Below are positions 4,434 to 57,197 of a stretch of 64,000 bases of DNA, piece by piece; positions within the stretch are counted from its first letter, which is position 1; each line of letters starts with the position of its first letter. Made by a program: the position numbers and the translations under genes. Below the pieces are notes generated by a model that was not told where the DNA came from, ran no database searches, and saw only the letters and a program-made list of their open reading frames with translations. This DNA comes from Actinomucor elegans. Its lineage: Eukaryota; Mucoromycota; Mucoromycetes; Mucorales; Mucoraceae. The stretch spans positions 144,501-208,500 of the forward strand of contig JAMSLZ010000013.1 in NCBI GenBank assembly GCA_026027325.1, read 5' to 3'.

Positions 4434-4838
4434 TTAAAGATAAGTAAAAACAAGTAAATATATCGAATTAATGAATAGCGGTTTTGTTGTTTAGAAAAAG
4501 CAGGTCTTAAATACGTTTGCTTGGTCTACAATTGACAGAGTTCTCAATGGTAATTCATTGTTTTAGGCTGTTGAATCCTTTGAACTAATCAGCTTTTCAT
4601 ATTACTCAGCCTTCCAGATTATTCAGATATCGAATACATTTTAATGGATCCTTATGATTTCTAATCAAGCTAATTCCTTTCCAAGTCAGTCATACCTGTC
4701 AGTAAGCTTACTTTCCAGAAAGCTCTTTGGACATTAGTAAGGATTACTAATGGATAAATGGTAAAGTACGCTTATAAAACAGTTAAATAGCTCAAATCAT
4801 TCAATCACTTTTCTTTATAATATATTTACTTTATAGCT
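4434..4838. promoter_or_regulatory. Divergent intergenic region between the two A genes (A-left)
   Basis: This 405-bp AT-rich spacer separates the start codons of the transposase (minus) and accessory gene (plus). It has no ORF and probably carries both promoters. TATA-like stretches occur close to each start, for example around 4818-4835. The identical spacer in A-right is 29864-30268. The promoter role is inferred only from the divergent layout. Confidence 0.4.
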
Positions 4839-14754: not shown

Positions 14755-14994
14755 GGGTTTATTTTGTCAGTCTTGCAGATGGTAAAGATGTTTACTTTTA
14801 ATAACAGAAACACTGCAACTAATACCTACTTTTACGGCCGTAATATATTGGTATTATTATGTAATATTACCGTACTTTTACCAAAATATTCCGGCCGTAA
14901 CAGTTCAACTATTACCGCGGTATGTGTTCGCCTGTTACCATCCTTTTACGGCCGGGCAAGTTCAACTATTACTGTTGGTAAAAGTACGGTAAAG

Positions 14995-15395
14995 AGCTAC
15001 ATTACATACCATTAATAATTAATATATATATTATAATTATTTTCATATTATTAAATTAAAATTATATAGCTTTCTTTATTTATCAAGTTGTAAGTTGCTA
15101 AAAAACTTACGGCGTGCTTTTTAATCAATTTTAAAAGAAAAAAATTGTCGCACAACAGGGTTTCGATCTGGTGTGAAATATTATGAAAAAAAAAAGTTTA
15201 ATTGTATTGAAAAGTAATATAAAAGTTTAATCTTTATAAGTTTTGCATAATTATTGCAATTTCTTATTTTTACGTTAATTACCAAACTTTCAAAAATTAC
15301 AATAAAAAAGTGTTAAACAAAAAAAAATATAATTACAAAAAACACTATTTAATTTAAAAACTAATTTTTATTTTTTTTTTATTTTTAACGTTGCT
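14995..15395 (-). repeat. Solo copy of the element X terminal repeat (401 bp)
   Basis: It is nearly identical to the direct repeats at 48290-48685 and 50324-50721 and lies in the same orientation on the plus strand. It starts AGCTACATTACATA and ends TTAACGTTGCT. No transposase accompanies it. Flanks are TAAAG on the left and CAAAAG on the right, close to the CAAAG duplication of element X but imperfect. It interrupts the left subterminal region of element B, so it is younger than B. Confidence 0.85.
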
Positions 15396-16774
15396 CAAAA
15401 GATGAACACATACCGCGGTAATATTTTGGTAAAAGTTCGTCTGTTCCATTGGTAAAAGACCGTAAAAGTTCAACTATTTCCATGAAAATGACCGTAAAAC
15501 AGTCCTCCTTTTACCGTATTTTTACATATATTACGATCCTTTTACATTAAATTGAGCCAATAATAATCGATATTTTATAATTACACATTTTACATCTTTT
15601 ACTATAATTTTGGTTTATACACATTTTTATTGAATAAAAATATTGTATATTCATTGCTAAATAATAATCCACCAGAAAGAGTACCAGATATAATAGCCAT
15701 AAATAACTAACTTCAGCAAATCAGTATTGTCGTAGTAAAACGCGCCATTTTTAGAGAAGAAATCAGAGTAAAGAAAGCCACAACCGAAAAGACATTATAT
15801 TAAGAAACGACCAAAAAGAAAAGCCACTTCAACCAAGAGGATAATTTAATTAGCAAAATCTAAACATCAAAAAGAGAGGTGAATAACGTGTTTATAATTC
15901 CAGTCAGAAGTTAAGACATACCAAGTATTGTTGCGTAAGCATTCAGCAAAATAGTACTAACAAATGAAAATGGATGTAAGTAAAACAAGCTTTTGAGCGG
16001 ATAGAAGATTAAGTGCTTACCATATGTTCAAGTATAAAAACGGCCTAAAAATGAGTGGTAAATGAAAGAAATCAGCACAGGTTAATTAAACGTGAACGAA
16101 ATTCATGCATACCATAAAGATTATGACCAAAATAATTCGAGTTAACATAGCAGCTGGAAACAGCAACTCAATCAAACCAATCTAACAGCTAAATGGAAGA
16201 ATATATAAGAACAAAGTTGAAGAAGAAATCTTTAATACATACAAAATATAGCAAGCATTAGAAGACGGAATCACCATTTGGAATATATCGAGCATATTAA
16301 TGCCAATCGGATGATATGTTAAGCTAAGATTAACGAAGAATCTAAAAAACCGATCAGTTTATGAAGTAATTACAACTTTTTCTCTTACCATTAAAATTAA
16401 AAAAAAAAAGCTCATGTAAAAAATAATGAGCTGCGAGTTTGCTAATGAGAGAAAAGAGGATTAAGTATGCTTCAAGCTATGATTTAATAGGAATTTTTAC
16501 CTTGATGGGAATGACTGATTAAAGCTATTTGTACATATATTTGAATTAAAAAAAAAGTAAGGATTACAATGAAAAGAAAACACGAGAAGAGCGAAAAAAT
16601 TTTATTAAAATAAAAGCCTCAAAGATGACGTATCAAAAAATAGTAACTATTAAGTAGAGATAGACTCACCAGTAATTGGATTAATAACATGCATAATTCA
16701 GGCACAGCACAAAAGTATAATAAAAGCTCTTTAAGGCATTCCTTTTTTAAATCACTATTAAAAAACATTTTAGC
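15396..16774. other. Gene-free left arm of element B
   Basis: The first 150 bp continue the subterminal motifs (GGTAAAAG, CCGTAAAAGTTCAACTATT). The rest is AT-rich with no ORF, RNA or repeat that I can support. It probably includes the promoter of the accessory gene. Confidence 0.5.
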
Positions 16775-40982: not shown

Positions 40983-43900
40983 TTATTCTAACAAACTAGG
41001 AGATTCAGTGGCAGTGGATGTACTAGCCATGAATTCCGAAATTATAAGTGAATAATCATGCTCGAATGCATTAATAGCATGAGCAGAGGACCAGGATTCA
41101 TCATGAATCACGCATTTCCAATGCAAACGCCAAACTGTAGCCAAGCCGGCACCAAGGAGCACCAAAAGGTCATTCGAAAGAGGTACTGACTTGAGATCAC
41201 ACAAGGTGACCAAGCCAGACCAAACAGAAGCAAGATCGCAGAGAGGTTCTTGGAGACAGAGCAACTGGATCATATCCATCCAAAAGATAGCCTTCATGGG
41301 ACAGTATACGAGCATATGGCCAAGTGTTTCCACTTCACCACAGAGGCCACAGAGAGGAGACAGGTACACATTTGGATCCCACCGATGCAAGCGAGCACGA
41401 TAGCCAATGCGGTCATGCAAGAGACGCCACCAAGGAGTGAATGCTTTTGCAGGCATAGGCAAAGACCAAAAGAGACGCCAAAAGAAGGGCCGAAGCAGAG
41501 CATGAGCACCCATAGTAGCAGGAGGTTGAGGACGGTGCATCACAAGTGATGCATACTCCGGATGCCAAGAGCGACGCAGAACACCAAGAGGAACCTTTCG
41601 AATTGAGACTACCGTTTTACTGGTAACCTGGATAGTCCAGTGGGCAGTAGAAGGCAGCCAAGAAGAAGCAGCAGGAGAACAGGGCAGAGCAGACAGTTCC
41701 GAAGAAGAGAAGCCAATCTTGGAGCGGATTACCTCAGGCAAAGTCAGAGTCGGAGGACCATTAAATGGTTGGAAACCAGACCAGACTAGACGAACTTGCC
41801 TTTTCATGTTGTTCTTGAGACCAGCAGAGACCACACCGAGATGAGGAATCCAGAAACACAAGTCCGAGAGCAAATACCTTGGAGCCAGGGCAGCAGGATC
41901 CAGAGGAGGAGGCTTACCCAGAGGATTCTCGCAAGGCGATACCACAGAACAAAGAGGAAGATCCAAAAACCAGCGAGGAGACCAACTTTCCGACACGACC
42001 AGAGGAGGCAACCGAGAAAGCAACTCCACCAAGTGAGAAACCACAGGCACACCCTTGAAAAGCGACTTGTACATGGCTGGATACATGAACCAGGGTAGGA
42101 CCGAAGAGTGACCAGTATACACCTGAATACAATGCACCAACCAAGGAGAAACAAAGTCCACAGCAGAACGAGAAGGAAACAGCAATCGTTGGATGTACAC
42201 CATATGGAGAGCCAGGCTTTGATCTTTGACATCAACAAGAGAGGCACCACCGAACTTCTTTGGTAGACACAAGGAAGACCAAGACACAGACGGATTGAAA
42301 GGAACCATGAATTCACGAATGACCCTTTTGAGCTGGTCCAGCCAGGAAGTAGGAGCAGGAATCACCCGAAGAATATGGTACACCTTAGAGAGCAGCAGAG
42401 AGTTAGCCACAAGGCTTTTACCACGGATTGACAGCTGTCGTTCCTTAAGCAGGTTGCTATGCCTTGTAACCTTGACCAAGATAGCATCCAGGTAGTCCAA
42501 CAGTTGAGCTTGTGTACTGTACAGAGGATAGCCCAAGTACCGCACCGCACCAGAAGAAGAAGCATCATGCCATTCGATACCAGAAGAATCTGCCAGAGAC
42601 ACCCATGAAGCATGAGAGACACCAGAGAGAGACACCAAGACCGTCTTGCTAAGATTGACTTTTGCATTGGAAGCGCGACCATAAAGATCCAAGAGAGAGA
42701 GTAGTAGAGACCATTCATCCGGAGAGGAGAGAAACACTTCAAGATCATCAGCATAACTTAGGAGCTTCACCGCTGGAGGAGGGGTTGAGCCACTGACAAA
42801 GTCAAGAGGCCAATTGCCCGTACCATCCTTTGGATCCACATGCACCGAGAGAGGAGAAGGCTTGAACCGAGGAGACACCATCACCGAACCAAGAGAGACA
42901 CCAGCCAAAGAAGACACCAGAAGAGAACGCAGCAGTGGCTCGAAAGCCAAGTTGAAGAGCAAAGGCGAGAGAGGATCACCTTGCCGTAAGCCTCGCTGTT
43001 GAGGTATTGGAGCCCCTAACCAACCATTGATGGACACCGAGATTTGGGTACCAAAAAAGAGAGAAGAGAGGGAACTCACCAACGAAGCGGGGAAGCCAAA
43101 ACGAAGTAGGACCAGCCGAAGGTATTCAGGATGAACCCTATCATAGGCCTTTTCTTGATCCAAGAGCACAGCCACCTGCGGTAACTCTGGAGAGACCGAG
43201 CGCAAATGAGACATCAGGAGCTGGTTGAGCCAGCCATTATCAGAGATCAACCGACGGGGCATAAAGCCAGTTTGGTACGGATTGATCAGACCAGGAAGCA
43301 CCTCATTGAACCGATTGGCCAACAGTTTTGTGAACAGCTTGGCATCCGAATTGATCAAAGAAAGGGGTCGCCAGTTGGAGAGCAGCTGAGGATCACCCTT
43401 CTTGTACAGCAGAACCATTCGAGTTTGTTGCCAAGATTGCGGAAACACACCTGAGAAAGCATCACCAAGAACCGATACTAAGAGATCAAGGAAAGGACGG
43501 GAGTTTGTAGCCAAGTATTGATACACCTCAAATGGAAGACCATCCAGACCAGGACTACGAGACTTGGGAGCATGAGCAAGCACAGAAAGCACCAGAAGAG
43601 CATTAGGCAAAGCCGTCAGCTTTTCCGCATCCGAGGATGAAAGCACCACCTCAGGAGGTATAGCCGCCAAAAGAGAATCTATAGCTTCCGCATCGACATC
43701 ATCAGGAGTGTACAGCTTTTGGTAGAAACCTCGAGCTTCCTTCAGAATATCAGCCGCTTCCACCAAGACCTCACCAGTAGTAGAGCACTTTAAGGATTGG
43801 ATAGTCATAGAAGACTGCCGCTCCTTGATGACCCGGTAGAAATACTTGTTGTTGCGTTCCCCAAGTTCATGCCAACGAGTGGCCGAGCGAAGCATATGTT

Positions 43901-45035
43901 GGCGAGTTTCTTTTTGAATCTGACCATCGATCAATTTCTCTAGTTCATGCACCACCTGAAGAGGAAGTGAATCACCACTAGGTTGAATCGACGGTGTAGC
44001 ATCACTAGTCCTAACACCTGACTCAACAGAGGAAACAGCCTTCATACGTTCCTTTTGCAACGCAGCAACTTTGTTCTTGAACCGAGTCTTCATGCTTCGA
44101 GAGTACGTCTGTGCACAGCACTTCAGTAGCATCTTGAAGGATTCCCAACGTTCCTGCACCGAAAGCGAAGGGTCTCCACCACTACCATGACTAGAATTGT
44201 CAGAATCACCATCACCACCATCAAAGAACAGAGCCACAGTCTTGTCCAGCAAAGCCAAGAACTCCGTGTCATCGAGGAGTGTGGGATTAAACCGCCAACA
44301 ACCTGGACCAATAGAGGCACGAGCAGGAAGAAGATCAACCGTCAAAAGACAGTGATCTGTCCACTTTGGGGGTACATATTGGACCAGAGCATTCACCAGG
44401 CGCGTAGCCAAAGACCGATGACCAAAGATGTAGTCAATGGTTGTGCCAGCTTGAGGGAAGGTAGCAGCCCCATCCGGGAAGCAGTTGTCAAAATGAGTAC
44501 ATAGCCATTCATACCAAGGGAGCACGGCAGAATGACTAGTCTCGGCGGTAGTATGCAGGTGGATGTTGAAATCACCTACCAACATCCAAGGCGTGTTGGA
44601 CACCTCAGACCACAAAGCAAGAGAGAGAAAAGATTGTAGAAACTGTGGACGGTCCGAAGACTGTGCCGGTGCATAGATATTGGCCACACGGCACAAGACA
44701 TTATGCTGGGCATCCTTGACAGTAGCCACAACACAACGCTCATCCAGGAGAACTTGAGTAGCACCCAAAGAAAGACCAGGCTTGAGACAGACAATGGCAC
44801 AATGTTTGGACACCACAAAGGGACAGCGAGGAAAGAAGAAAGAGAAAGAGCGGATTTGTTGATCAGAAAGAACGGATTGAGAGTGAAAGTGAGATACCTC
44901 TTGCAAGCAAAGGATATCCACACCGAGAGAACGAGCGCGTAGGTAAGAAGCGAACTCCTTTTGTATGTTTTTATTGGACTCCATAAAAATGCTACGCACA
45001 TTTAAGGAGCCAATTCGAATGTGTGAACCTAACAT
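40983..45035 (-). CDS. LINE ORF2: APE endonuclease and reverse transcriptase, 1350 aa (copy C)
   Basis: The N-terminal APE-type endonuclease shows SLNVRS, CLQEV, NIYAP, GDFN, TTIDYIFG and TDHCLL in order. The reverse transcriptase follows (about 540-800), with LLDQEKAYDRVHPEY, RGLRQGDPLSPLLF and SYADD near 761. A CCHC finger (CGLCGEVETLGHMLVYC) lies near the C-terminus. The ATG overlaps the ORF1 stop as TAATG, pointing to termination-reinitiation. The frame is complete with the same length as copies 2 and 3, though many residues differ. It would nick DNA and copy its own RNA by target-primed reverse transcription. Confidence 0.95.
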   Translation of the reverse strand: MLGSHIRIGSLNVRSIFMESNKNIQKEFASYLRARSLGVDILCLQEVSHFHSQSVLSDQQIRSFSFFFPRCPFVVSKHCAIVCLKPGLSLGATQVLLDERCVVATVKDAQHNVLCRVANIYAPAQSSDRPQFLQSFLSLALWSEVSNTPWMLVGDFNIHLHTTAETSHSAVLPWYEWLCTHFDNCFPDGAATFPQAGTTIDYIFGHRSLATRLVNALVQYVPPKWTDHCLLTVDLLPARASIGPGCWRFNPTLLDDTEFLALLDKTVALFFDGGDGDSDNSSHGSGGDPSLSVQERWESFKMLLKCCAQTYSRSMKTRFKNKVAALQKERMKAVSSVESGVRTSDATPSIQPSGDSLPLQVVHELEKLIDGQIQKETRQHMLRSATRWHELGERNNKYFYRVIKERQSSMTIQSLKCSTTGEVLVEAADILKEARGFYQKLYTPDDVDAEAIDSLLAAIPPEVVLSSSDAEKLTALPNALLVLSVLAHAPKSRSPGLDGLPFEVYQYLATNSRPFLDLLVSVLGDAFSGVFPQSWQQTRMVLLYKKGDPQLLSNWRPLSLINSDAKLFTKLLANRFNEVLPGLINPYQTGFMPRRLISDNGWLNQLLMSHLRSVSPELPQVAVLLDQEKAYDRVHPEYLRLVLLRFGFPASLVSSLSSLFFGTQISVSINGWLGAPIPQQRGLRQGDPLSPLLFNLAFEPLLRSLLVSSLAGVSLGSVMVSPRFKPSPLSVHVDPKDGTGNWPLDFVSGSTPPPAVKLLSYADDLEVFLSSPDEWSLLLSLLDLYGRASNAKVNLSKTVLVSLSGVSHASWVSLADSSGIEWHDASSSGAVRYLGYPLYSTQAQLLDYLDAILVKVTRHSNLLKERQLSIRGKSLVANSLLLSKVYHILRVIPAPTSWLDQLKRVIREFMVPFNPSVSWSSLCLPKKFGGASLVDVKDQSLALHMVYIQRLLFPSRSAVDFVSPWLVHCIQVYTGHSSVLPWFMYPAMYKSLFKGVPVVSHLVELLSRLPPLVVSESWSPRWFLDLPLCSVVSPCENPLGKPPPLDPAALAPRYLLSDLCFWIPHLGVVSAGLKNNMKRQVRLVWSGFQPFNGPPTLTLPEVIRSKIGFSSSELSALPCSPAASSWLPSTAHWTIQVTSKTVVSIRKVPLGVLRRSWHPEYASLVMHRPQPPATMGAHALLRPFFWRLFWSLPMPAKAFTPWWRLLHDRIGYRARLHRWDPNVYLSPLCGLCGEVETLGHMLVYCPMKAIFWMDMIQLLCLQEPLCDLASVWSGLVTLCDLKSVPLSNDLLVLLGAGLATVWRLHWKCVIHDESWSSAHAINAFEHDYSLIISEFMASTSTATESPSLLE

Positions 45036-45192
45036 TACGCCCTATGGGCAGAACCAGAGGACTTGGAAGGCTTGGGGGCCTTGATCGAAGAGCTACCAGA
45101 AGTCTTGGTTACGTTCGCAATGTTCTTTTTCAAAAAATCAATCTTGTTCTGAGTAGAAGAGTTGACCTTGGACAAATTCAGCATCTCCTTAG

Positions 45193-45410
45193 ATAAACAT
45201 TTACAACTACTTAATATTTTTAACTTTCCTAAAAAATCAAGGCATAAATATAATGTTGCCTTTTTATCCATAAATAAAATGTTGGTTACTTGTTCTATTT
45301 TAGAATAAAATTTATTTATATTATTATTTGTATTCAAAAAAATCTATTATTTCCTAATTTTTTATATATTGTACTATTTTGAACATATTTCTGTAATACT
45401 AAATGTTCTT
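45193..45410. repeat. Left direct repeat of element Y (218 bp)
   Basis: Near-identical to 47475-47693. It ends AAATGTTCTT and is followed by CTTA. It contains a minus-strand frame of about 49 codons that reads directly into the LINE ORF1 tail. Confidence 0.9.
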
Positions 45411-45422
45411 CTTATTAATTGA

Positions 45423-46901
45423 TTAATTATTTTCTATTGATTTCCAATAATTCAAAATAGTATCATGTGATGTAAAATCTTTTTCTTTTACCCATGAATT
45501 ATGTTCTTTACCATACTTTTTCCATTTTACAAAATATTCATATAAGTTCTTTACTTTTTTGTGTTTAATTATATATTGTATTTCATATATATTTTGATCA
45601 TTATTACTAGTGATATCTTCCTCCATTTGATCCATAATATCTATATTCACTTCATTTATATTTAAATTATTTAAAAATTGATTTTGTAATGATTTTATAT
45701 CAACGATATTTTCTATTTTATATTGTGTTTTTAATGTTACTTCTTTATTCATTTCAATATTATTTTTATAATAATAATCAAAATTATCATTTAGCCATTT
45801 GTTGTAATGGGCATTTTCTTCAATTCCAAATAACTCTGTAAAATATTTTATGTTCAGTAATACTATTGCTAATTTTAGCTGTATATTATATGTCTTATTA
45901 TCTGTTATTCTAATCTTATTTTGTCCACTAAATCTTTTAAAAATACTACCTAATTCTGCAAAATATTTTTCTATTTTTGACCTTAATCCACCTAATTCTT
46001 CATTGAATTTTTTTTCATCTATGGTTAATTCAACTCCTTTATCTTTTTTTATAGGATAGCAAAAATTTTTCAAGGATATATTAAATCCAATATTACTAAA
46101 TTTTTCTATAAATTCTTTTACTGTGTTTTCATATAATCCATCAAAACATATACAATCTATTTCATTATAAAACTTATTGATATTTATGTCTAAAAGCATT
46201 TTATCATCAGTATTATTTCTACAAGGTAAGGAATCAGATATATAAACACATATTCTATTAATATCTATAATAAATTGTGTATTTAATCCATTTCTTTTTA
46301 ATTTATACGAGAATAACTCTTTTTTATCTAGATTAATATCTTGATATGTTATACGATTATGGTGACCATCAATTAGTAATGTTACATTATCTAACATCAT
46401 TGGATTAAATTTCTTAGCACAAAGTAATCTCAATGTATGTGTAGAAAAACATTTTTCTAATTTATTATTTATCCATTTTTCCAATAAATCATAATTATTT
46501 ATATATAATGATTGATATAATTTATAAAAACTAGTAGATGGAATATACATTTCCATTTCATTTATAGATTTTCCATTTAATAAATGTTCTAATAATATCA
46601 ATACTTTATCTGCTGTTATATATGGACCTGGTAGTTTTATATTGTTACATAAATCTGTCAAAAATACAAATGGAGCAATACTTCCTAATTTAATATATAT
46701 ATTTTTTTTAATTCTATCAATATTTGGTATACTCGTTATTTTAGATCTATGATATTTCAATTCAACTTTATATATATATTCATTTTTCATAAATTTCCAA
46801 TACCTATTGTAAATATTTCTGTATTCATTTTCAATTAATAAGTCTATATGAGTGTTCATAAACAAATAAAATGATGTATTTTTATATAAAGAGAAATTCA
46901 A
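45423..46901 (-). CDS. DDE_Tnp_4/Harbinger-like transposase with C-terminal chromodomain (element Y)
   Basis: 492 aa from the first ATG. The second ATG (46859) matches the start of the X homologue better and would give 478 aa. The core has the DDE_Tnp_4 layout: D178 in LLIDGHHNRI, D254 in CFDGLYEN, E311 in LRSKIEKYFAELGSIFKRF. Between the first two come YKLKRNGLNTQFIID and SDSLPC. Residues about 437-490 form a chromodomain (YEIQYII, FVKWKKY, NSWVKEKDF with the Trp/Tyr cage positions). Chromodomains bind methylated histone tails, so this one could steer integration to heterochromatin (inference). The frame is complete. Roughly half of the residues match the X protein. Confidence 0.75.
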   Translation of the reverse strand: MNFSLYKNTSFYLFMNTHIDLLIENEYRNIYNRYWKFMKNEYIYKVELKYHRSKITSIPNIDRIKKNIYIKLGSIAPFVFLTDLCNNIKLPGPYITADKVLILLEHLLNGKSINEMEMYIPSTSFYKLYQSLYINNYDLLEKWINNKLEKCFSTHTLRLLCAKKFNPMMLDNVTLLIDGHHNRITYQDINLDKKELFSYKLKRNGLNTQFIIDINRICVYISDSLPCRNNTDDKMLLDININKFYNEIDCICFDGLYENTVKEFIEKFSNIGFNISLKNFCYPIKKDKGVELTIDEKKFNEELGGLRSKIEKYFAELGSIFKRFSGQNKIRITDNKTYNIQLKLAIVLLNIKYFTELFGIEENAHYNKWLNDNFDYYYKNNIEMNKEVTLKTQYKIENIVDIKSLQNQFLNNLNINEVNIDIMDQMEEDITSNNDQNIYEIQYIIKHKKVKNLYEYFVKWKKYGKEHNSWVKEKDFTSHDTILNYWKSIENN

Positions 46902-46949
46902 TTTTTAATATTTTCTATATTTAATAAACTTTTATTTATATATGAAAAT

Positions 46950-47357
46950 TCAATTTTTAATATTTTCTATATTTTCCAAGAACTTATGATTTCTTTTTGC
47001 ATAATCTAACCATGATTTAAAATTATAAATTTCTTTAATACTAACATATCCTTTTCTTAAACACCAGGATTTGAAATATTCATTTCTAACTTTTTCGTTA
47101 TCATCTAAAATTGTTTTTATCACTAAATTGGCATGGATATTTGTATTGTTTTCACCAACATCATAGAAAGGACCACTATATAAAATTTTATCAATATTTT
47201 TTATATTTCCAACCCATTGCAGTATTTTCTTGTTTAATATTTCGGATGATTTATTCTTGACATCTTTTTTTTCAGGATTTAGAGTTAAAACCACAGCATA
47301 ATAATAGATTTTTTCCATTAAATATAATATTGATGTTATTTTAAAAATAATTCTCAA
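46950..47357 (-). CDS. Small second ORF of element Y, faintly HUH/Rep-like
   Basis: 135 aa from the first ATG; 122 aa from the likelier ATG at 47318. It contains VVLTLNPEKKD, then NNTNIHANLVIK, then WLDYAKRNHK. Order and spacing recall motifs I (TLN), II (H-x-H/Q) and III (Y-x-x-K) of HUH-type Rep endonucleases, but motif II has only one His. No helicase part is present. It lies 48 bp upstream of the transposase, in the same direction, and X has no counterpart. The HUH reading is a guess from three short motifs. It could equally be an unrelated accessory protein. Confidence 0.35.
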   Translation of the reverse strand: MRIIFKITSILYLMEKIYYYAVVLTLNPEKKDVKNKSSEILNKKILQWVGNIKNIDKILYSGPFYDVGENNTNIHANLVIKTILDDNEKVRNEYFKSWCLRKGYVSIKEIYNFKSWLDYAKRNHKFLENIENIKN

Positions 47358-47474
47358 ATATTATAGATACTTTTATATTTTCCAAAATATCATGCCAAGA
47401 ATTAGATGCCAAGGAAGTTGTTTTTAGATTTCTCAATGTGATTAAACGCAATGGAAGTCTAAAAATAGGACAAG

Positions 47475-47693
47475 ATAAACATTTACAACTACTTAATATT
47501 TTTAACTTTCCTAAAAAATCAAGGCATAAATATAATGTTGCCTTTTTATCCATAAATAAAATGTTGGTTACTTGTTCTATTTTAGAATAAAATTTATTTA
47601 TATTATTATTTGTATTCAAAAAAATCTATTATTTCCTAATTTTTTTATATATTGTACTATTTTGAACATATTTCTGTAATACTAAATGTTCTT
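47475..47693. repeat. Right direct repeat of element Y (219 bp)
   Basis: Same sequence and orientation as 45193-45410, preceded by ACAAG and followed by the CTTAG target duplication. Confidence 0.9.
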
Positions 47694-48289
47694 CTTAGGA
47701 CTATCCACCTTCATTCCAACACCAGAAGCAAAAGGAGCATGCTTCGAAGCCAATGAACCGTACGGACTGTTGGGATTGTACTTTGAATTCACGCCGGAAG
47801 ACAAAGGAGCACCCTCACCGGTTTCGGTCATCACCACATCTTGATCACCAGCATCATCACCAGCACCAACACCAGAGTCACCACCAGCACCAACACCAGC
47901 ATCAACACCAGAGTCACCACCAGCACCAACAAAGGACACACCAGAAGATTCCGGAACCTCGTCCTGATCAGCCAAATCAACTGTAGCTTCCTCAACTACT
48001 ACGTTATCTTCCATTGACTTGGAATCAGAACCAGTTCTCATATCACCAGACAGAGCAACATATTCATCAAGTTCGACCTCAAACGGCTTCACCTTGGACT
48101 TCTTCACTTTACAAAAACGCGCAGTATGGCCATGCTCTTGGCAAGAGAAACACCTGCGCTTGGCCAATTCAGGGCAGTCCTTGCGGACATGACCCGAACG
48201 GCGACAAAAGTGACACACAGGAGGAGCATTCTTGTACTGAGCGGGAGCAAAGTTGTCCCAGGCACTCATGTAGAGCATTCTTGACAAAG

Positions 48290-48685
48290 AGCTACATTAC
48301 ATATCATTAATAATTAATATATATTATAATTATTTTCATATTATTAAATTAAAATTATATAGCTTTCTTTATTTATCAAGTTGTAAGTTGCTAAAAAACT
48401 TACGGCGTGCTTTTTAATCAATTTTAAAAGAAAAAAATTGTCGCACAACAGGGTTTCGATCTGGTGTGAAATATTATGAAAAAAAAAGTTTAATTGTATT
48501 GAAAAGTAATATAAAAGTTTAATCTTTATAAGTTTTGCATAATTATTGCAATTTCTTATTTTTACGTTAATTACCAAACTTTCAAAAATTACAATAAAAA
48601 AGTGTTAAACAAAAAAAAATATAATTACAAAAAACACTATTTAATTTAAAAACTAATTTTTATTTTTTTTTATTTTAACGTTGCT
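48290..48685. repeat. Left direct repeat of element X (396 bp)
   Basis: Near-identical to 50324-50721 and to the solo copy at 14995-15395. It contains a GC-richer hairpin, with CACAACAG pairing with CTGGTGTG around GGTTTCGAT. It is followed by CTTAG. Confidence 0.95.
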
Positions 48686-48686
48686 C

Positions 48687-50138
48687 TTAGACATTGATAG
48701 AATCCCAATAATTCTTTAGAATATCTTTTGTTTGAAAGTCACTTTCTTTAATCCAACTGTTTACTTGTTTTTTATAATTTCTCCATTTTACCTCATATTC
48801 ATATTCATTATTTATTTTTCTATGTTGTATTATATATTGTATCTCATATACATTTTTATCAGTACTAGTATTATTATCATCATTATCAATTTGCATTTTA
48901 TTTTTAGTTAAGCTGATTTTAAAATTATTATCAGATAAAAGTTTATTTAGAAGATCATCCTGTAAACTTTTCATATTCATTATATTTTCTTTTTTATATA
49001 CCGCCTTTATTGATTTAGTTTCGATATTAAAATCCTTAATAGTATCAAAAAAATCAAAATCTTTTTCCATCCATAGTTTATAATAAGATTTTTCTTCTAT
49101 ATTATTATTTTCTACAAAGTTTTTGATATTAAATAAAACTAATGCTAATTTAATCTGAATGTTATATGTTTTTTCTTTTGTAATTCTTGCATTGGCTTTG
49201 TAGCTAAATCTTTTGAATATATTTGAAAATTTTGCAAAAAAAGTTTCAATGGTACTTCTATATGATCCTAATTGTTTATTAAAATTTAATTCATCAACAT
49301 CTAAATCAATATTTTTTTCTTTTTTTATTGGAAAACAAAAGTTATTTTCTGTAATATGTAATCCTACATTATTATATTTTTTTAAAATTTCATCTAATAC
49401 ATTTTCATACAATCCATCATAGCATAAACAATCTGTTAGTTTAAAAAATTTCATTAAATTTATATTATTAATAAACATATTATCGTCATTATTAAATTTA
49501 CACGGTAATGATTCTGAAACATAGATGATATATCCTGCTGAATCTATAATAAATTGGGTGTTTAATGCATTTTTCTTTAATTTATAAGAATATAAATCTT
49601 TTTTATTTAAATCAATATCTTCAATTACTATTCTATTATGTCTTCCATCTAAAAGTAATGTACAATGTTCAAAATTTTTAGGATTGTATAATTTACTATA
49701 TAATAATCTAGTAATGCTGTTGCTAAAACAATAAAACATCGTATTATTAACCCAATTTTCTAAAAAATCTATATTATCAATAAAAACAGATTTATAAATT
49801 CTATAAAAAGAATCATTCTCATCATAAATTTTCATATCATTAATGGAACAACCATCTACTAATAATTTTAAAATCAAAATTCCTTTTTCTACATTATATA
49901 CTGGTGATGGCATTTTAATTTTACTACAAATTTCTGTTAAAAATACAAATATAGGAATTGCACCTAATAGTTCATATAATTCTTTTTTTATATTTTGAAT
50001 GTTAATAAAATTTCCTATTTTACTTCTATGATATTGTTTTTCAATATTAGATTTATATGTATTATCTAAAAATTTCCAATAATTTGTTTTAATCTCTTCA
50101 TATTCATTTTCTAATAGTTCCTCTATTTCAATTGTCAT
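48687..50138 (-). CDS. DDE_Tnp_4/Harbinger-like transposase with C-terminal chromodomain (element X)
   Basis: 483 aa, intact. Catalytic candidates are D164 in LLLDGRHNRI, D241 in CYDGLYEN and E298 in YRSTIETFFAKF, spaced as in the Y protein (76 or 75, then 56 residues between). Other family blocks are YKLKKNALNTQFIID and SESLPC. Residues about 429-482 are a chromodomain (YEIQYIIQHRK, YEVKWRNYKKQVNSWI). The start MTIEIEELLENEYEEIK aligns with the internal ATG of Y. Fusion of this transposase class with a chromodomain is not something I know as a described family. It probably acts on the repeat ends, possibly guided by histone marks (inference). Confidence 0.78.
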   Translation of the reverse strand: MTIEIEELLENEYEEIKTNYWKFLDNTYKSNIEKQYHRSKIGNFINIQNIKKELYELLGAIPIFVFLTEICSKIKMPSPVYNVEKGILILKLLVDGCSINDMKIYDENDSFYRIYKSVFIDNIDFLENWVNNTMFYCFSNSITRLLYSKLYNPKNFEHCTLLLDGRHNRIVIEDIDLNKKDLYSYKLKKNALNTQFIIDSAGYIIYVSESLPCKFNNDDNMFINNINLMKFFKLTDCLCYDGLYENVLDEILKKYNNVGLHITENNFCFPIKKEKNIDLDVDELNFNKQLGSYRSTIETFFAKFSNIFKRFSYKANARITKEKTYNIQIKLALVLFNIKNFVENNNIEEKSYYKLWMEKDFDFFDTIKDFNIETKSIKAVYKKENIMNMKSLQDDLLNKLLSDNNFKISLTKNKMQIDNDDNNTSTDKNVYEIQYIIQHRKINNEYEYEVKWRNYKKQVNSWIKESDFQTKDILKNYWDSINV

Positions 50139-50323
50139 AAGATGTTCTTATTTTTATTTATATAATAATTCAATTTTTTAGAAAAAAGTAATTGAGTTTG
50201 AATTAATGTTACAGAAATGATTATAATTATAATTATTTTAATATTAAACATTCAAACATTTGGCAAAAAAAAAAATAAAAATTGATACTATGAATCAAAA
50301 ACAAAGAGCAATTTTTATATAAG

Positions 50324-50721
50324 AGCTACATTACATATCATTAATAATTAATATATATATTATAATTATTTTCATATTATTAAATTAAAATTATATAGCT
50401 TTCTTTATTTATCAAGTTGTAAGTTGCTAAAAAACTTACGGCGTGCTTTTTAATCAATTTTAAAAGAAAAAAATTGTCGCACAACAGGGTTTCGATCTGG
50501 TGTGAAATATTATGAAAAAAAAAGTTTAATTGTATTGAAAAGTAATATAAAAGTTTAATCTTTATAAGTTTTGCATAATTATTGCAATTTCTTATTTTTA
50601 CGTTAATTACCAAACTTTCAAAAATTACAATAAAAAAGTGTTAAACAAAAAAAAATATAATTACAAAAAACACTATTTAATTTAAAAACTAATTTTTATT
50701 TTTTTTATTTTTAACGTTGCT
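50324..50721. repeat. Right direct repeat of element X (398 bp)
   Basis: Same orientation as 48290-48685, preceded by ATAAG and followed by the CAAAG target duplication. Confidence 0.95.
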
Positions 50722-51645
50722 CAAAGGTTGAGGAGGAACCACCTCACCATCCTCATTCTTCATACCCACAGAAGTATCAAGCAACACCGACATCTTGCCC
50801 TCGAAATACCCTTTGCTAGTAAACTTTTTCAATTGGTACACCTTACCATAAAAAGCCAAAGAGTCAAGCAAGTCCACCAGGAAGGTATCCTCATTGGGAA
50901 TAGCATTGAGCAGTGTAAACTGCACATGGGTCAAACTATTTCCCACGGAAGCACCAGAACCAGAAGAAGTTGAAACGGCCTTGTAGACAATACCATTTAC
51001 CATAATACCAGAACCAACAGCCTTGAGAGCATCAGCCTTCAGCCTGAAAGTTGCTTCCACCAGAAGGTCACCACCAGCAGTTTTGCCCCAAGCACTAATA
51101 GGCCTAAACTGCACCTTACTATCGATTTGGTCTTGAATCGCCTTGTAAGCAGCAAAACGATCAGGAAACAACTTTCCAGGGAAAGAGAACAAAACAGAAC
51201 CAGAAGAGAGAGCTTGCTCCACCAAAGCAGCAGCCTTGCGAACCAAGATTTCAGATTTAAGGTCATCATCTTCGAAAATGACCTCACCAACAAGAGGAAT
51301 TGCAGAATTGTCGACATTACGTCGACCAGGAGTAACAAGTACCTTCTTAGAGGCACCACGAGCAACAATAGTTGTCCAGGACACGGCAGAATTTTCGGTC
51401 ATGTACCAGAATTCTCAAAATTGAGGAGATTGAGCAAAAAAGTTTTTGAAATGTCGAAATTGGCGAATTGAGATGTCAAGATCGAGCGAAATGTAGAAGA
51501 TGTTGGAGATTTGCAAAAATAATTATACCACCAGAAGCGCAGCGACGAGTAGAAGACGAATACGAAACAAGCGGAGATTTTTTTTTTTGTATTAAATGTA
51601 ATTTATTGATCTTAAAGTGGTTTTACAAAGCTAAATTACAAATTA

Positions 51646-54600
51646 CTAATCTAATGTTGTGCTAGTAGACCCATCAGGAGTTCTACTATCTAAGAAAGTG
51701 GTGATAACAAGGCTGTTATCTGTCTTGAAGGAATTGAGGACCCAAGCTGAGGACCAAGTATCATCATGAATAACACATCGCCAATGTGCAGCCCATAGGG
51801 TATAGAAGATCGAACCCAAAATGGAAAGCACATCCACGTCAAGCGGCTTGCAATCTAGACTACATAGAGTGACCAGTGCAGCCCAGATGTTCGCGTCACA
51901 GGGAAAGTCTTCATCCAAGGAGAGGAAAACAAGAGCTTGACGCCAGTAGTCGGATTTATGAGGACAACCGACAGCAAAATGGTACAAGTCTTCATTGGCA
52001 CCGCAGAGAACACAGAAAGGAGAAGGAAACTGCTGAGGAGACCAGCGATTTACCCGAGAGCGGTAACCAATCTTGTCATGGAGTAGCCTCCACCAGGGAG
52101 TGAAAGCCTTGGCTACCATTGGAAGAGACCAAAACAAACGCCAAAAGAAAGGACGCAAAAGCAAGTGAGAAGCCACAGCCAAAGGAGGACCAGGGCGAGC
52201 GGAAACAACAGAGTGATCAGCGTGCCAGAAACGACGCAAGACACCAAGAGGGAGTTTGACCACAGATACCACCGAAGAGGGACCAGAAGGAACAGTCCAA
52301 TGACGGGTCGATGGCATCCAGGAAGAAGCACCAGAACGAGACACAGGAAGAGCACGCTGTTCATCGTAAGTGAAAGCCACTTTTGACCTCATCACCGGAG
52401 GGAGAGCCAGAGAAACAGGACCAAAAGGAGGACTTAAACCATAATAGACCGACTTGACTTGGCTGGAACTTGGCAGAGCCTTATTGGAGAACAGGGTGCC
52501 AGAGTGAATATTCCAGTGGAATATGTCAGACATGAGATACTTGGGAGCAACAGACGAAGGAACAAAACCAGGAGACAGATCATGATCAACACCAGGAACA
52601 GAAGACACCACACAGCACAAAGGAAGATCCAGGAACCACCGAGAAGACCAAGAAGAATGCACCACCAGAGGAGGCAGCCGAACCAGAAGCTTGGTTAGAT
52701 GATCCAGGGTTGGAATGCTATTCAACCGAGGCTTGAATCGTGATGGATACATCAACCAAGGGAGAACCGAAGAATGACCAGAATAGGCTTGAAAGCAGAA
52801 CACCAACCAAGGAGACACAAAATCCGAAGACACCAGAGGACGAAGCAGACGTTGAACATACACAAGATGCAAAGCAAAGCTCTGATCTTGGATGTCCACC
52901 AGACCAACACCACCATACTTGCGAGGAAGACACAAAGAAGACCAAGACGGCGCGGGCCAAAACGATGCCACATACTTGCGCACTACTGCCTTGATATCCA
53001 GAAGCCACTTGCCAGGCACAGGAACCACACGGAGAAGATGATACACCTTGGAGAGCAACAGAGAATTCGCCACCAGACCAGTACCACGTATAGACAGGTG
53101 TCGTTCACGAAGCATGTTTGCATGCCTCTCCAACTTGACTTTGACACCATCCAGGAAATGCAGCAACTGAGCATCGGTATGATACAGTGGATAACCAAGG
53201 TAACGCACCGAGCCAACAGACGACGAATCATGCCACTCTACACCAGCAGCAGAAGCTATATCAACCCAAGGCTGATGAGCCACACCCGAAAGAGACACCA
53301 GAACAGTCTTGCTGAGATTCACCTTGGCGTTGGAGGCACGACCATAGACCTCAAGAAGAGACAGAAGCACCAACCATTCACCAGGCGAAGACAAGAACAC
53401 CTCAAGATCATCGGCATAACTGAGAAGCTTGATAGGAGCCGGAGGAGAAGAACCACTGACGAAATCAAGCGGGTAGTTACCCGTATCATCACCCAAATCA
53501 AGATGGACCTTTTGAGGGTTAGGGAGCCAAGTCCGAGGAACCACCACAGGAGCCAGAGAAACACCAGACAGAGAAGAACAAGCCAAGACAGACCGCAACA
53601 GGGGTTCAAAAGCCAAGTTGAACAACAGAGGTGATAGTGGATCACCCTGCCTAAGGCCACGCAACTGAGGAACAGCTGCTCCTAACCACCCGTTAATGGA
53701 CACGGAGATCTTGGTACCAAAGAACAAAGAAGAGAGACAACCAACCAGACCAGAAGGAAAACCAAAACGAAGCAACACACGACGAAGATACTCAGGATGG
53801 ACCCGATCATAAGCCTTCTCTTGATCAAGTAACACCGCAACTTGAGGAAGGTTTGGAGCCACCGACCGAAGATTAGCCATCAACGTTTGATTCAACCACC
53901 CATTATCCGAGATCAATCGATGAGGAAGGAACCCAGTTTGATAGGGGTTGATCAGTTTTGGAAGGACACGGTTGAACCTATTGGCCAGCAACTTGGTAAA
54001 CAACTTGGCATCAGAGTTGATCAGAGACAGAGGACGCCAGTTAGCCAAGAGCAGAGGATCACCTTTCTTGAACAAAAGCACCATCCGAGTTTGTTGCCAC
54101 GAAGGAGGAAACACACCAGAGAAAGCACCACCAAGGACTGCCACCAGCAAGTCCAGAAAAGGTCGCGAACGACCAGCCAAGTAATGATATACCTCGAAAG
54201 GAATACCATCCATGCCAGGAGACCGAGACCTAGGGGCGTGAGCCAGTAGATCCAGCACCGTAACGGCATTAGGCAGAGCCATCAGATACTTGGCATCATC
54301 CGAAGACAACACCACTTCTTCAGGGATACCATTCAAAAGAGAGTCCACGGCTTCGGCATCGATGTCGTCCGGGGTGTATAGCTTTTGGTAAAAACCGCGA
54401 GCCTCCCGAAGTATATCAGCCGCTTCCACCAAGACCTCACCAGTAGTAGAGCACTTCAAGGACTGGATTGTCTGTTGAGACTGGCGATCCTTGATGACAC
54501 GATAGAAATACTTGTTGTTACGTTCACCCAGTTCATGCCAACGAGTGGCAGAGCGAAGCATATTCTGGCGTGTTTCTTTCTGAATCTGACCATCAATCAA

Positions 54601-55698
54601 TTTCTCTAGCTCATGCACCACCTGAAGAGGAAGTGAATCATCACTAGGTTGAATTGACGGTGTAGCATCACTAGCCATAATACCTGAGACAGAAGAGGAA
54701 ACAGCCTTCATACGTTCCTGTTGTAAAGCAGCAACCTTGTTCTTGAATCGAGCCTTAGCACCCCAAGCGTACTTTTGCGCACAGCACTTGAGCAACAACT
54801 TGAAGGATTCCCATTGAGATTGGACCCTCAACGGTTCACCCTTACCACCAGAGCTAGCATTGTCACCATCACCACCAGAAGATTCGAAAAAGAGAGACAC
54901 CGTCTTGTCCAGCAATAGGAGAAACTCTGAATCCTCCAGCAGAGTGGGATTAAAGCGCCAACAGCCAGGACCAATACGAGCACAAGCAGGCTGCAGATCG
55001 ATTGTCAAAAGACAGTGATCGGTCCACACACCAGGAACATAATGGACTTGACCATTCACCAACCGAGTCACCAGCGAAGTATGACCAAAGATATAATCAA
55101 TAGTAGTACCAGCCCTAGGAAAAGTAATAGGACCGTCCGGGAAACAGTTGTTAAAGTGGAGACGAAGCCAATCATACAGCGGAGCCACAGAGGAAAGACT
55201 TGTCTCGGCAGAAGAGTGCAGATGAATGTTGAAGTCACCTACCAACATCCAAGGCGTGTTGGACACCTCAGACCACAAAGCAAGAGAGAGAAAAGATTGT
55301 ATAAACAGTGGACGGTCCGAAGACTGTGCCGGTGCATAGATATTGGCAACACGACACAAGACATTATGCTGGGCATCCTTGACAGTAGCCACAACACAAC
55401 GCTCATCCAGGAGAACTTGAGTAGCATCCAAAGAAAGACCAGGCTTGAGACAGACAATGGCACAATGTTTGGACACCACAAAGGGACAGCGAGGAAAGAA
55501 GAAAGAGAAAGAGCGGATTTGATGATCAGTGAGAGAAGATTGAGAATAGAAGTGAGATACCTCTTGCAAGCAAAGGATATCCACACCGAGAGAACGAGCG
55601 CGTAGGTAAGAAGCGAACTCCTTTTGTGTTGTTTTTTGGGACTCCATAAAAATGCTACGCACATTTAAGGAACCCAATCGAATGTTTTGACCTAGCAT
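51646..55698 (-). CDS. LINE ORF2: APE endonuclease and reverse transcriptase, 1350 aa (copy 2)
   Basis: The endonuclease domain (about residues 5-235) shows SLNVRS, CLQEV, NIYAP, GDFN, TTIDYIFG and TDHCLL. The reverse transcriptase domain has LLDQEKAYDRVHPEY (about 623-637), RGLRQGDPLSPLLF (about 680) and SYADD (about 761). The C-terminus carries the finger CVLCGANEDLYHFAVGC. The start ATG shares its A with the ORF1 stop (TAATG at 55696-55700). Its product nicks the target and reverse-transcribes the element RNA. No damage is visible. It differs from copy 3 at only a few residues, so amplification was recent. Confidence 0.96.
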   Translation of the reverse strand: MLGQNIRLGSLNVRSIFMESQKTTQKEFASYLRARSLGVDILCLQEVSHFYSQSSLTDHQIRSFSFFFPRCPFVVSKHCAIVCLKPGLSLDATQVLLDERCVVATVKDAQHNVLCRVANIYAPAQSSDRPLFIQSFLSLALWSEVSNTPWMLVGDFNIHLHSSAETSLSSVAPLYDWLRLHFNNCFPDGPITFPRAGTTIDYIFGHTSLVTRLVNGQVHYVPGVWTDHCLLTIDLQPACARIGPGCWRFNPTLLEDSEFLLLLDKTVSLFFESSGGDGDNASSGGKGEPLRVQSQWESFKLLLKCCAQKYAWGAKARFKNKVAALQQERMKAVSSSVSGIMASDATPSIQPSDDSLPLQVVHELEKLIDGQIQKETRQNMLRSATRWHELGERNNKYFYRVIKDRQSQQTIQSLKCSTTGEVLVEAADILREARGFYQKLYTPDDIDAEAVDSLLNGIPEEVVLSSDDAKYLMALPNAVTVLDLLAHAPRSRSPGMDGIPFEVYHYLAGRSRPFLDLLVAVLGGAFSGVFPPSWQQTRMVLLFKKGDPLLLANWRPLSLINSDAKLFTKLLANRFNRVLPKLINPYQTGFLPHRLISDNGWLNQTLMANLRSVAPNLPQVAVLLDQEKAYDRVHPEYLRRVLLRFGFPSGLVGCLSSLFFGTKISVSINGWLGAAVPQLRGLRQGDPLSPLLFNLAFEPLLRSVLACSSLSGVSLAPVVVPRTWLPNPQKVHLDLGDDTGNYPLDFVSGSSPPAPIKLLSYADDLEVFLSSPGEWLVLLSLLEVYGRASNAKVNLSKTVLVSLSGVAHQPWVDIASAAGVEWHDSSSVGSVRYLGYPLYHTDAQLLHFLDGVKVKLERHANMLRERHLSIRGTGLVANSLLLSKVYHLLRVVPVPGKWLLDIKAVVRKYVASFWPAPSWSSLCLPRKYGGVGLVDIQDQSFALHLVYVQRLLRPLVSSDFVSPWLVFCFQAYSGHSSVLPWLMYPSRFKPRLNSIPTLDHLTKLLVRLPPLVVHSSWSSRWFLDLPLCCVVSSVPGVDHDLSPGFVPSSVAPKYLMSDIFHWNIHSGTLFSNKALPSSSQVKSVYYGLSPPFGPVSLALPPVMRSKVAFTYDEQRALPVSRSGASSWMPSTRHWTVPSGPSSVVSVVKLPLGVLRRFWHADHSVVSARPGPPLAVASHLLLRPFFWRLFWSLPMVAKAFTPWWRLLHDKIGYRSRVNRWSPQQFPSPFCVLCGANEDLYHFAVGCPHKSDYWRQALVFLSLDEDFPCDANIWAALVTLCSLDCKPLDVDVLSILGSIFYTLWAAHWRCVIHDDTWSSAWVLNSFKTDNSLVITTFLDSRTPDGSTSTTLD

Positions 55699-57197
55699 TA
55701 TACCCTATGGGCAGAAGAAGAAGACTTGGAAGACTTGGACGTCTTGATAGCAGAAGCAGAAGCCTTGGTCTTCGCCACATTCACAATATTCTTCTTGAGA
55801 AAATCAATCTTGTTTTGTGTTTTAGCCTTGACTTTGCTCAAATCCATCATCTCTTGCACCGTATCAACCTTCATGGTTGAAGCAACCTCGTAGTCAGCAA
55901 ACTTGGAAGCTCGAGCACCAGTAGGACTGTTGGGATCGTACTCTACTCTCTCGCCAGAGAGCAGAGGATCACCCTCACCATCGAGCTCCATGACTTCAAT
56001 GATTGAGTCATCACCAGGAACACCACCAGAGATACCACCAGCAACACCAGAGGCAACACCAGAGACACCAGAGACACCACCAGCAACACCAGAGGCAACA
56101 CCAGAGACACCAGAGACACCACCAGCAACACCACCAGCAACACCAGAGACACCAGGAACACCATCACAAACACCAACCAAGGGCTCAGAAGCCACATCCT
56201 GCTCAACCAGCACAATAGATTCTTCAACAACTATATCAACATCGTTTGACATAGTGTCAGGACCAGATTTCTTTGCAGCAGACAAAGCCACATAATCATC
56301 GAGCTCTGCCTCGAAAGACTTCACCTGTTGTTTCCTGGCCTTACAAAACCTTGCGGTATGGCCTTTCTCACGACAAGAGAAACACGTACGCTTAGCCAAC
56401 TCAGGGCAATCCTTACGGACATGACCCGACAAGCGACAAAAGTGACAAACTGGAGGAGCATTCTTGAATTGAGCAGGAGCAAACATGTCCCAGGCACTCA
56501 AGTACAGCATTCTTGTTAAAGGCTGAGGAGGAACCACCTCACCATCCTCACCTTCCATGCCCACCGAGGTATCAATCAACACCGACATCTTGCCCTCAAA
56601 ATAACCTTTGCGTGTGTACTTCTTCAACTGGTACACCTTACCATAGAAAGCCAACGAATCCAGCATGTCAACCAAAAAGGTAGCTCTGTTGGGAGTACAA
56701 CACACCAAATTAAACTGAACATGGGTCAGATTACCACCAACAGAAGAGCCAGAGCCAGAGCTAGTAGAAACAGCCTTGTACACAACACCATTCACAGTAA
56801 CACCATCATTGATAGCTTTGGTAGCGTCCGCCTTGCTATCGAAATTAGCTTCGACCAGAAGATCACCACCAGCACTTGCACGCATAGAACTAATGTGTCG
56901 GAAGTCCACATTAGCACCAACTTGTTCTTCAATGACCTTATACGCGTCAGTACGGTCACCAAACAGCTTCCCAGGGAAGGAGAACAAAACAGAACTTGAG
57001 CAAAGCGCCTGCTCCACCAGAGCAGCGGCTTTGCGCACCAACAGTTCGGACTTGAGGTCATCATCTTCAAAGATGACCTCACCAACAAGAGGAACAGCAG
57101 CATTGTCGACATTACGTCGACCAGGAGTCAATGGAACCTTCTTGGAGGCACCACGGGCAACAACAGTCGTCCAGGACACGGCAGAATTTTCAGTCAT
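55698..57197 (-). CDS. LINE ORF1, gag-like RNA-binding protein, 499 aa (copy 2)
   Basis: The N-terminal half (about 1-230) is conserved among copies and includes VLFSFPGKLFGDR and FYGKVYQLKKYTRKGY. It could be an RRM-like fold, but I cannot confirm this. Two CCHC zinc knuckles follow: CHFCRLSGHVRKDC and CFSCREKGHTARFC. Then comes a low-complexity region of repeated GVSGVAGGVAGG-type units whose length varies among copies. The tail is Lys- and Ser-rich. Role: binds the element RNA and builds the RNP. It is the only uninterrupted ORF1 in the window. It ends in the TAATG overlap with ORF2. Confidence 0.93.
   Translation of the reverse strand: MTENSAVSWTTVVARGASKKVPLTPGRRNVDNAAVPLVGEVIFEDDDLKSELLVRKAAALVEQALCSSSVLFSFPGKLFGDRTDAYKVIEEQVGANVDFRHISSMRASAGGDLLVEANFDSKADATKAINDGVTVNGVVYKAVSTSSGSGSSVGGNLTHVQFNLVCCTPNRATFLVDMLDSLAFYGKVYQLKKYTRKGYFEGKMSVLIDTSVGMEGEDGEVVPPQPLTRMLYLSAWDMFAPAQFKNAPPVCHFCRLSGHVRKDCPELAKRTCFSCREKGHTARFCKARKQQVKSFEAELDDYVALSAAKKSGPDTMSNDVDIVVEESIVLVEQDVASEPLVGVCDGVPGVSGVAGGVAGGVSGVSGVASGVAGGVSGVSGVASGVAGGISGGVPGDDSIIEVMELDGEGDPLLSGERVEYDPNSPTGARASKFADYEVASTMKVDTVQEMMDLSKVKAKTQNKIDFLKKNIVNVAKTKASASAIKTSKSSKSSSSAHRV

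Follow-up and report, generated by a model that had tools for sequence, protein, structure and literature searches.

Long terminal direct repeats around PIF/Harbinger-like transposase genes in Actinomucor elegans: a probable lineage of DNA transposons with KolobokP-like layout

Long terminal repeats that run in the same direction are typical of retrovirus-like elements, the long terminal repeat (LTR) retrotransposons. For DNA transposons, our search of the open PubMed Central (PMC) literature (subscription journals and Repbase not covered) yielded this layout only in KolobokP of animals. This closest precedent is described by its authors, in the parts of the paper available to us, as having a layout unlike that of any other DNA transposon; it occurs in seven animal phyla, with repeats of about 450 or 660 bp, autonomous oyster families of 4.0-4.7 kb and an excision that leaves a copy minus exactly one repeat, and some of its families have no His-Me nuclease (Kojima and Bao 2022, PMC9587614). 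The PHIS superfamily comprises PIF/Harbinger, Pangu, Nuwa, ISL2EU and Spy, and PIF/Harbinger ends usually start with A or G, as stated in the accessible text of Han et al. 2015 (PMC4482050). A Mucor lusitanicus LTR-like element with a transposase domain was rejected as a counterpart, since the accessible part of that report compares elements by reverse transcriptase and concerns a different thing (PMC11943222). In the corresponding part of a report on fungal Harbinger relatives with TET genes, the sole mention of direct repeats is that none occur at the ends of certain homologous stretches (PMC12730594). Here we describe two elements, X and Y, in a window of 64,000 nucleotides from Actinomucor elegans (NCBI GenBank assembly GCA_026027325.1, contig JAMSLZ010000013.1, positions 144,501 to 208,500 of the forward strand), the whole stretch analysed, to which the coordinates listed refer. 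Both are probably members of one DNA transposon lineage, PHIS-type (PIF/Harbinger-like), in which the two ends are direct copies of one module of 220-400 bp, movable as part of the whole element or as a single module.

The observed anatomy of X and of its solo repeat is as follows:
48289..50722, minus strand (the strand of its gene): element X, complete, with its G...C ends
48286..48288: left-flank target duplication of X, AAA
50723..50725: right-flank target duplication of X, AAA
48290..48685: long terminal direct repeat (LTDR) at the left end of X
50324..50721: right long terminal direct repeat of X
48687..50138, minus strand: X transposase, 483 aa
48702..48848, minus strand: chromodomain of the X transposase, residues 431-479
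14994..15396: solo X repeat, flanked by a target duplication of 3 bp (AAA)

Element Y is built as follows:
45192..47694, minus strand: element Y, complete, with its G...C ends
45189..45191: left-flank target duplication of Y, TTA
47695..47697: right-flank target duplication of Y, TTA
45192..45411: direct repeat at the left end of Y
47474..47694: direct repeat at the right end of Y
45423..46859, minus strand: Y transposase, 478 aa from the first ATG, DDE_Tnp_4 with C-terminal chromodomain
46950..47318, minus strand: second gene of Y (122 aa; fold predicted to be Rep/HUH-like)

An earlier note on this window had described X as one gene, DDE plus chromodomain, between direct repeats of 396/398 bp, and this description holds: the repeats are 99% alike over that length and identical over 300 bp without gaps, and the transposase, the single gene when ATG frames from 70 aa upwards are considered, has the Pfam domains DDE_Tnp_4 (E 2e-9) and Chromo (E 9e-6). 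The lone X repeat that it placed at 14995-15395 is likewise present. For Y, with repeats 99.5% alike, the note was right about the common plan and about repeats unrelated to those of X, and wrong about the single gene, having overlooked the second one; the two transposases are 49% identical. Including the outer G and C, the tips of the X repeat are GAGCTACATTA / GAGCAACGTTA. Residues D164, D241 and E298 of the X transposase are invariant in 30/30 aligned rows (33 transposases were aligned and three partial rows set aside from this count), and their placement is DDE-fold-like, with the first D in a strand, the second after a strand and E in a helix; the motif C/DxxH occurs between D241 and E298 in 0/33. 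No reverse transcriptase domain was detected by Pfam in the X and Y proteins, no Myb/SANT second protein in X among ATG frames of at least 70 aa, and no known RNA in the repeats with Rfam at gathering thresholds, which over the whole window returned only two tRNAs.

The genome (36.5 Mb, 27 contigs) was searched with a 30-base pattern of the X repeat, allowing up to 3 mismatches, and with a 31-base pattern of the Y repeat; the reversed patterns, used as controls, gave 0 matches for both. Altogether 101 matches were obtained for X, and the 100 listed form 20 pairs, all on the same strand and spaced by 2033-2038 bp, and 60 unpaired repeats. The 100 Y matches, which are pattern counts with few copies outside the window read, form 36 pairs spaced by 2280-2283 bp and 29 unpaired repeats, one repeat being common to two pairs, i.e. 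a tandem R-I-R-I-R copy. 'Unpaired' includes truncated copies and, for X, diverged ones, several of them near contig ends. For full X copies, 20 further loci were read (19 complete, one truncated), giving 20 complete copies with the X of the window; for unpaired repeats, 40 loci were read, including the solo of the window again and one copy cut by a contig end. The earlier note had allowed that most copies of the transposase might lack flanking repeats and the composite be accidental; for X, the matches listed comprise instead 20 complete copies bearing both repeats, a truncated copy and another that a contig end interrupts. Five diverged X-type repeats share the same two pattern changes (C10:1655, C24:1655, C22:3027, C15:1845 and C4:13197), and four of them lie within about 3 kb of the contig start. 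Contig C2 starts with CCCTAA telomere repeats (L045:1-120) and holds a solo X repeat at 586-985. At C12:1438238-1440901, a Y copy is split by 158 bp of inserted sequence, and its two parts overlap by 4 bases.

Every complete X repeat is preceded by G and followed by C, so that the element is one base longer at each end than its repeats. With G...C counted as part of the element, a 3-bp target duplication is observed at 18/20 full X copies and 32/33 distinct X solo sites, four further solo rows having been set aside as flank duplicates. The 5-bp duplication proposed previously (CAAAG for X, CTTAG for Y) was rejected in favour of AAA and TTA, respectively: the 5-mer rule fits only 3/20 full X copies and 13/33 distinct solo sites, and CAAAG and CTTAG are tip bases plus the triplet and its neighbours. 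These 5-mers may reflect a mild preference for C-NNN-G targets, which account, in raw counts, for 13/33 solo sites and 3/20 full copies. The 3-bp duplication is confirmed by paralogous empty sites, i.e. exact junctions with a single triplet elsewhere in the DNA read, which are observed for 7/20 full X copies, for 15/40 solo rows (among the 40 are the truncated copies L020 and L065 and, as a duplicate of the window's solo, L051; two of the 15 have a flank in common) and for 2/11 other insertions tested. The mismatches at the full copies L003 and L011 and the solo L041 fit recombination between copies. L003 and L007 lie at equal distance from two contig ends, with a common right flank and different left flanks, which points to an exchange between chromosome ends via an element.

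The X repeats fall into haplotypes that bear on how they are kept alike and how solos arise. Four substitution sites define two haplotypes among the full copies, and in 20/20 complete copies the left and right haplotypes are the same, 10 copies having each type (chance 5.4e-6; the left repeat of L015 has a gap at one of the sites). The interiors form the same two lineages, four substitutions apart, with private substitutions in no copy; the interiors otherwise vary by indels of one base, possibly sequencing errors and possibly the cause of some frameshifts. Given the agreement between left and right haplotypes and the two interior lineages, homogenisation of the repeats followed the divergence of the lineages. 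The solos differ: haplotype CTTA is present in 10/20 complete copies and 0/33 solo sites (Fisher 1.5e-5, comparing 10/21 with 0/33; a truncated CTTA copy was excluded), and the common haplotype is found at 11 solo sites. C...,.TTA, ..T., ..TA and ...A occur among solos and in no full copy; of these, C... occupies 11 distinct solo sites, and in 10 cases it carries no further substitution, indels uncounted. Since the solo haplotypes differ from those of full copies, movement of single repeats is favoured, and recombination occurs too. An origin of solos exclusively by recombination between the repeats of a full copy, as for solo LTRs, such that single repeats never transpose, predicts the same 3-bp duplication on solos as on full copies, which is what we see, and would accommodate the tandem Y copy and the three X loci without matching triplets. 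It does not readily account for the absence of CTTA from the solos, for 11 C... sites with almost no private substitutions and no full counterpart, or for the presence of both tips on each repeat; we consider it possible but doubtful. The Y tandem and the 2/20 full copies without matching triplets point to recombination of direct repeats, as suggested in the earlier note, and the solo haplotypes favour movement of solos as well.

Ten related families were read, of which eight (X, Y and A-F) have direct repeats and two (G and H) inverted repeats; 20 loci of subfamilies other than X and Y were read, i.e. three each for A and F, two for B, four for C, one each for D and E, five for G and one for H; in addition, a diverged relative flanked by inverted repeats of 218 bp was found at L034. 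The direct-repeat elements are 2.1-2.8 kb long, and their repeats (220-400 bp across the eight families, about 220-293 bp in A-F) are mutually unrelated, each matching only its own family in the DNA read, and about 98-100% alike within one copy. The flanking triplets match at 14/14 loci of A-F (two B loci have common flanks), and solos with matching triplets were also read for Y (2) and D (1). The triplet is free, with many different triplets for X and for A-F, and the TWA target duplication of strict PIF/Harbinger is not kept to in either. In these families the long repeats are direct and the outer ends are short inverted tips of about 11 bp, mostly imperfect; each repeat bears both the left and the right transposon tip. 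The style of the tips is alike across families (GAGAAACG..., GAGTTACG..., GACGATCA...), and the inner borders are TTA...TAA in X, A and E and variable in the other families. Under a rule of our own, stem-loops number one in X (7-bp stem), one in Y (6-bp stem, AT-rich loop), two in D and none in A, B, C, E and F, so no shared origin-like hairpin is shown.

In a tree of the 10 local transposases and 23 of 55 public relatives, the direct-repeat families lie on one side of a branch with support 96/96, and G, H and five public proteins on the other. With eight of ten families direct and on one side of this branch, the suggestion of a transposon class with terminal direct repeats was right. The longest contig is shorter than 3 kb for 51/55 public relatives; such short contigs would fit assembly breaks at direct repeats. 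No relative in a viral contig was confirmed. The protein search with the X transposase gave at least 89 matches (88 of 408 candidates scored), and a Pfam search of the genome gave 131 DDE_Tnp_4 matches. In family G (L036-L039; e.g. L038, reverse strand, 2489-5554), a 3.07-kb element consists of two modules, each with its own inverted repeats of 203-207 bp, one holding a transposase and the other a 201-residue open frame; by eye, a 3-bp target duplication surrounds the whole element. The inverted repeats of family H (L040:3464-5862) are 423 bp long, and some 285 bp of each form a partial palindrome (about 73%), a layout that is possibly a step between the inverted and the direct ones.

The family comparison bears on three further explanations. 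If two independent units resembling miniature inverted-repeat transposable elements (MITEs) had come to flank a transposase gene by chance, unpaired X repeats might well outnumber paired ones, as they do (60 v 40 among the 100 listed); such accidental composites are already contradicted by eight families that are all direct and lie on one side of one branch, by the narrow spacing in both families counted and by the haplotype match in all complete X copies, and this explanation can hardly be right. Of the earlier proposal that each repeat is a minimal transposable unit and two act as a composite, the unit stands, with both tips and its own 3-bp duplication when alone; the pairing is not accidental, since eight of the ten families read have the direct layout and lie on one side of the branch. 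A second explanation, a non-autonomous relative of LTR retrotransposons that is copied from RNA in trans and has captured a transposase gene, appears extremely improbable: it would cover the layout, the solos, the matched repeats and the tandem with a shared repeat, but the elements have no reverse transcriptase, their ends are GA...TC with inverted tips rather than TG...CA, the inner borders by eye show no tRNA-like primer site or purine tract, and the relatives G and H have inverted repeats. Finally, ordinary gene conversion might keep two redundant end regions alike that play no part in movement, for which the nearly equal likeness of the G and H inverted repeats speaks; it would leave unexplained the direct orientation common to eight families, the two tips per repeat and the occurrence of solos, and we regard it as rather unlikely.

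The preferred reading is that of a transposon whose ends are mobile modules. Because each module carries a left and a right tip, the transposase could join either the outermost tips, in which case the whole element would move, or the two tips of one module, in which case a solo repeat would move like a MITE; both kinds of movement would produce the 3-bp target duplication. We infer that the transposase acts on both whole elements and single repeats. Homologous recombination or gene conversion would keep the repeats alike and would also give rise to tandems and a part of the solos, presumably to a one-repeat circle as well; the chromodomain would steer insertion into heterochromatin; and in Y-like families the Rep-like nuclease may nick within the repeat and start copying. 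Several observations weigh against this reading. Among the X and Y matches listed, there is no excision footprint, i.e. a copy minus exactly one repeat. The structural model of the X transposase has no match in the Protein Data Bank (PDB) at E 0.001, the best rows being chromodomains and a retroviral integrase complex appearing weakly, at ranks 31 and 50. The count of eight direct families covers the ten that were read; the 131 DDE_Tnp_4 matches include further families. Likeness of about 98-100% is also reached by the inverted repeats of G and H, so that ordinary gene conversion with no role in transposition may be what homogenises the direct ones. Solo haplotypes without a counterpart among the full copies could be relics, left by full copies since lost.

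The 122-aa product of the second Y gene has at least 22 public relatives, down to about 41% identity and all annotated as 'hypothetical protein'. Residues D53, H62, N64 and Y106 are invariant in 15 aligned proteins of 23 in the set, so that the motif H62-x-N64 is accompanied by Y106. The canonical HUH pair is H-x-H or H-x-Q, and H-x-N is not canonical. The AlphaFold 2 (AF2) model (predicted local distance difference test, pLDDT, 83) has the order strand-helix-strand-strand-helix-strand-helix, short helices apart. In Rep proteins, H, N/Q and Tyr lie on fold elements of this kind. In BFVD, a collection of predicted viral proteins, 14 of the top 50 rows are named, 7 of them as Rep, replication initiator or parvovirus nonstructural protein, the last of which is of the HUH kind; the six rows below E 0.001 are all unnamed. 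Comparison with PDB (Foldseek/VIA) gave mostly generic ferredoxin-like folds, the ISHp608/IS608 transposase rows being weak (Foldseek ranks 7, 9 and 42, template modelling (TM) score 0.32-0.33). No Pfam match, including Myb/SANT, exceeded the cut-off, nothing convincing was found against PDB sequences, and PHROGs gave one weak match with a function-less annotation (E 0.034). In its predicted fold, the protein resembles Rep (HUH) nucleases and may be one of them.

At C21:330185 and C22:765493, the match to a relative of the second gene (42-46% identity) starts 897 bp ahead of a DDE_Tnp_4 match in the same orientation, so that the pair of transposase and second gene seems, by sequence, to recur in a distant family. 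At 17 further loci, relatives with 67-70% identity occur without a DDE_Tnp_4 match in the Y arrangement; two of these loci have an X copy within 2 kb. These loci, a repeated element that seems to carry the second gene without the transposase, include C22:745630 and C22:747639, 2009 bp apart, C3:188207 and C11:15500. Among ATG frames of at least 70 aa, no second gene was found in X and A-F. A tentative reading, which we hold to be less probable than not, is that Y-type elements combine two movement systems, an inserting DDE transposase and a Rep-like (HUH) nickase, and are hybrids of a cut-and-paste transposon and a rolling-circle replicon. Under the hybrid reading, the nickase would start copying in one direct repeat, stop in the other and free a one-repeat circle; the direct repeats would be paired replication origins and hence would have to be direct and stay identical, X would be a one-gene offshoot, and the roughly 17 second-gene-only loci would be a non-autonomous partner.

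Both X and Y reside in one copy of a long interspersed nuclear element (LINE), in its apparent open reading frame 1 (ORF1) region (a zinc knuckle is present on one fragment). Intact paralogous LINE stretches within the window span the X site at 56374-56669 (86%) and 61977-62273 (82%), and the Y site is likewise spanned by paralogous stretches at about 70%; no exact empty junction for these two insertions was found in the DNA read. Long LINE copies follow one another at 40983-55698; one copy scanned has endonuclease, reverse transcriptase and zf-RVT, and the zinc knuckle marks an ORF1 fragment.

The direct-repeat layout is present here and in an unrelated transposase superfamily, which suggests that it evolved at least twice; in both lineages some members have a small extra nuclease gene (here predicted), so that the role of direct repeats can be tested by comparison. 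With eight direct families beside inverted relatives and with very young X copies, the gain of the layout and the origin of solos can be dissected. If annotated from their layout alone, these elements would be called LTR elements. They share with LTR retrotransposons the layout, the solos and the matched repeats and differ in having no reverse transcriptase, different ends and inverted tips on each repeat. As in bacterial composite transposons, two potentially mobile modules that can stand alone flank an interior, as far as the available portion of the KolobokP paper describes these (PMC9587614); in X and Y, by contrast, the transposase lies between the modules and the arrangement is inherited by a whole lineage.

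According to the same portion, KolobokP resembles X and Y in several respects: its long terminal repeats are direct and bear short inverted tips themselves, solos and tandems with a shared repeat occur, the target duplication is short, the ends are RR...YY, and recombination and solo movement are proposed (PMC9587614). It differs in that its transposase, with C/DxxH between the second D and E, is of the Kolobok superfamily and that most families also encode a His-Me homing nuclease (PMC9587614). X and Y, for their part, have DDE_Tnp_4 with a chromodomain, lengths of 2.1-2.8 kb, repeats of 220-400 bp and no recognised His-Me gene. In the accessible text on PHIS, the likeness lies in the DDE transposase, the D/D/E placement and, in several groups, the 3-bp target duplication, and the NuwaII targets C|TNA|G recall the C-NNN-G preference of X; the PHIS groups differ in their terminal inverted repeats, group-specific triplets and a mostly Myb/SANT second protein (PMC4482050). 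X and Y have a free triplet, long direct repeats, a fused chromodomain and a second gene that, if present, is predicted to be Rep-like. Given that the transposase and the 3-bp duplication match PHIS and the layout matches KolobokP, as far as the two sources go, we assign X and Y by their transposase to the PHIS superfamily, though to none of the groups described for it, and by their architecture liken them to KolobokP. This architecture was known already; what appears to be new is its presence in another transposase superfamily.
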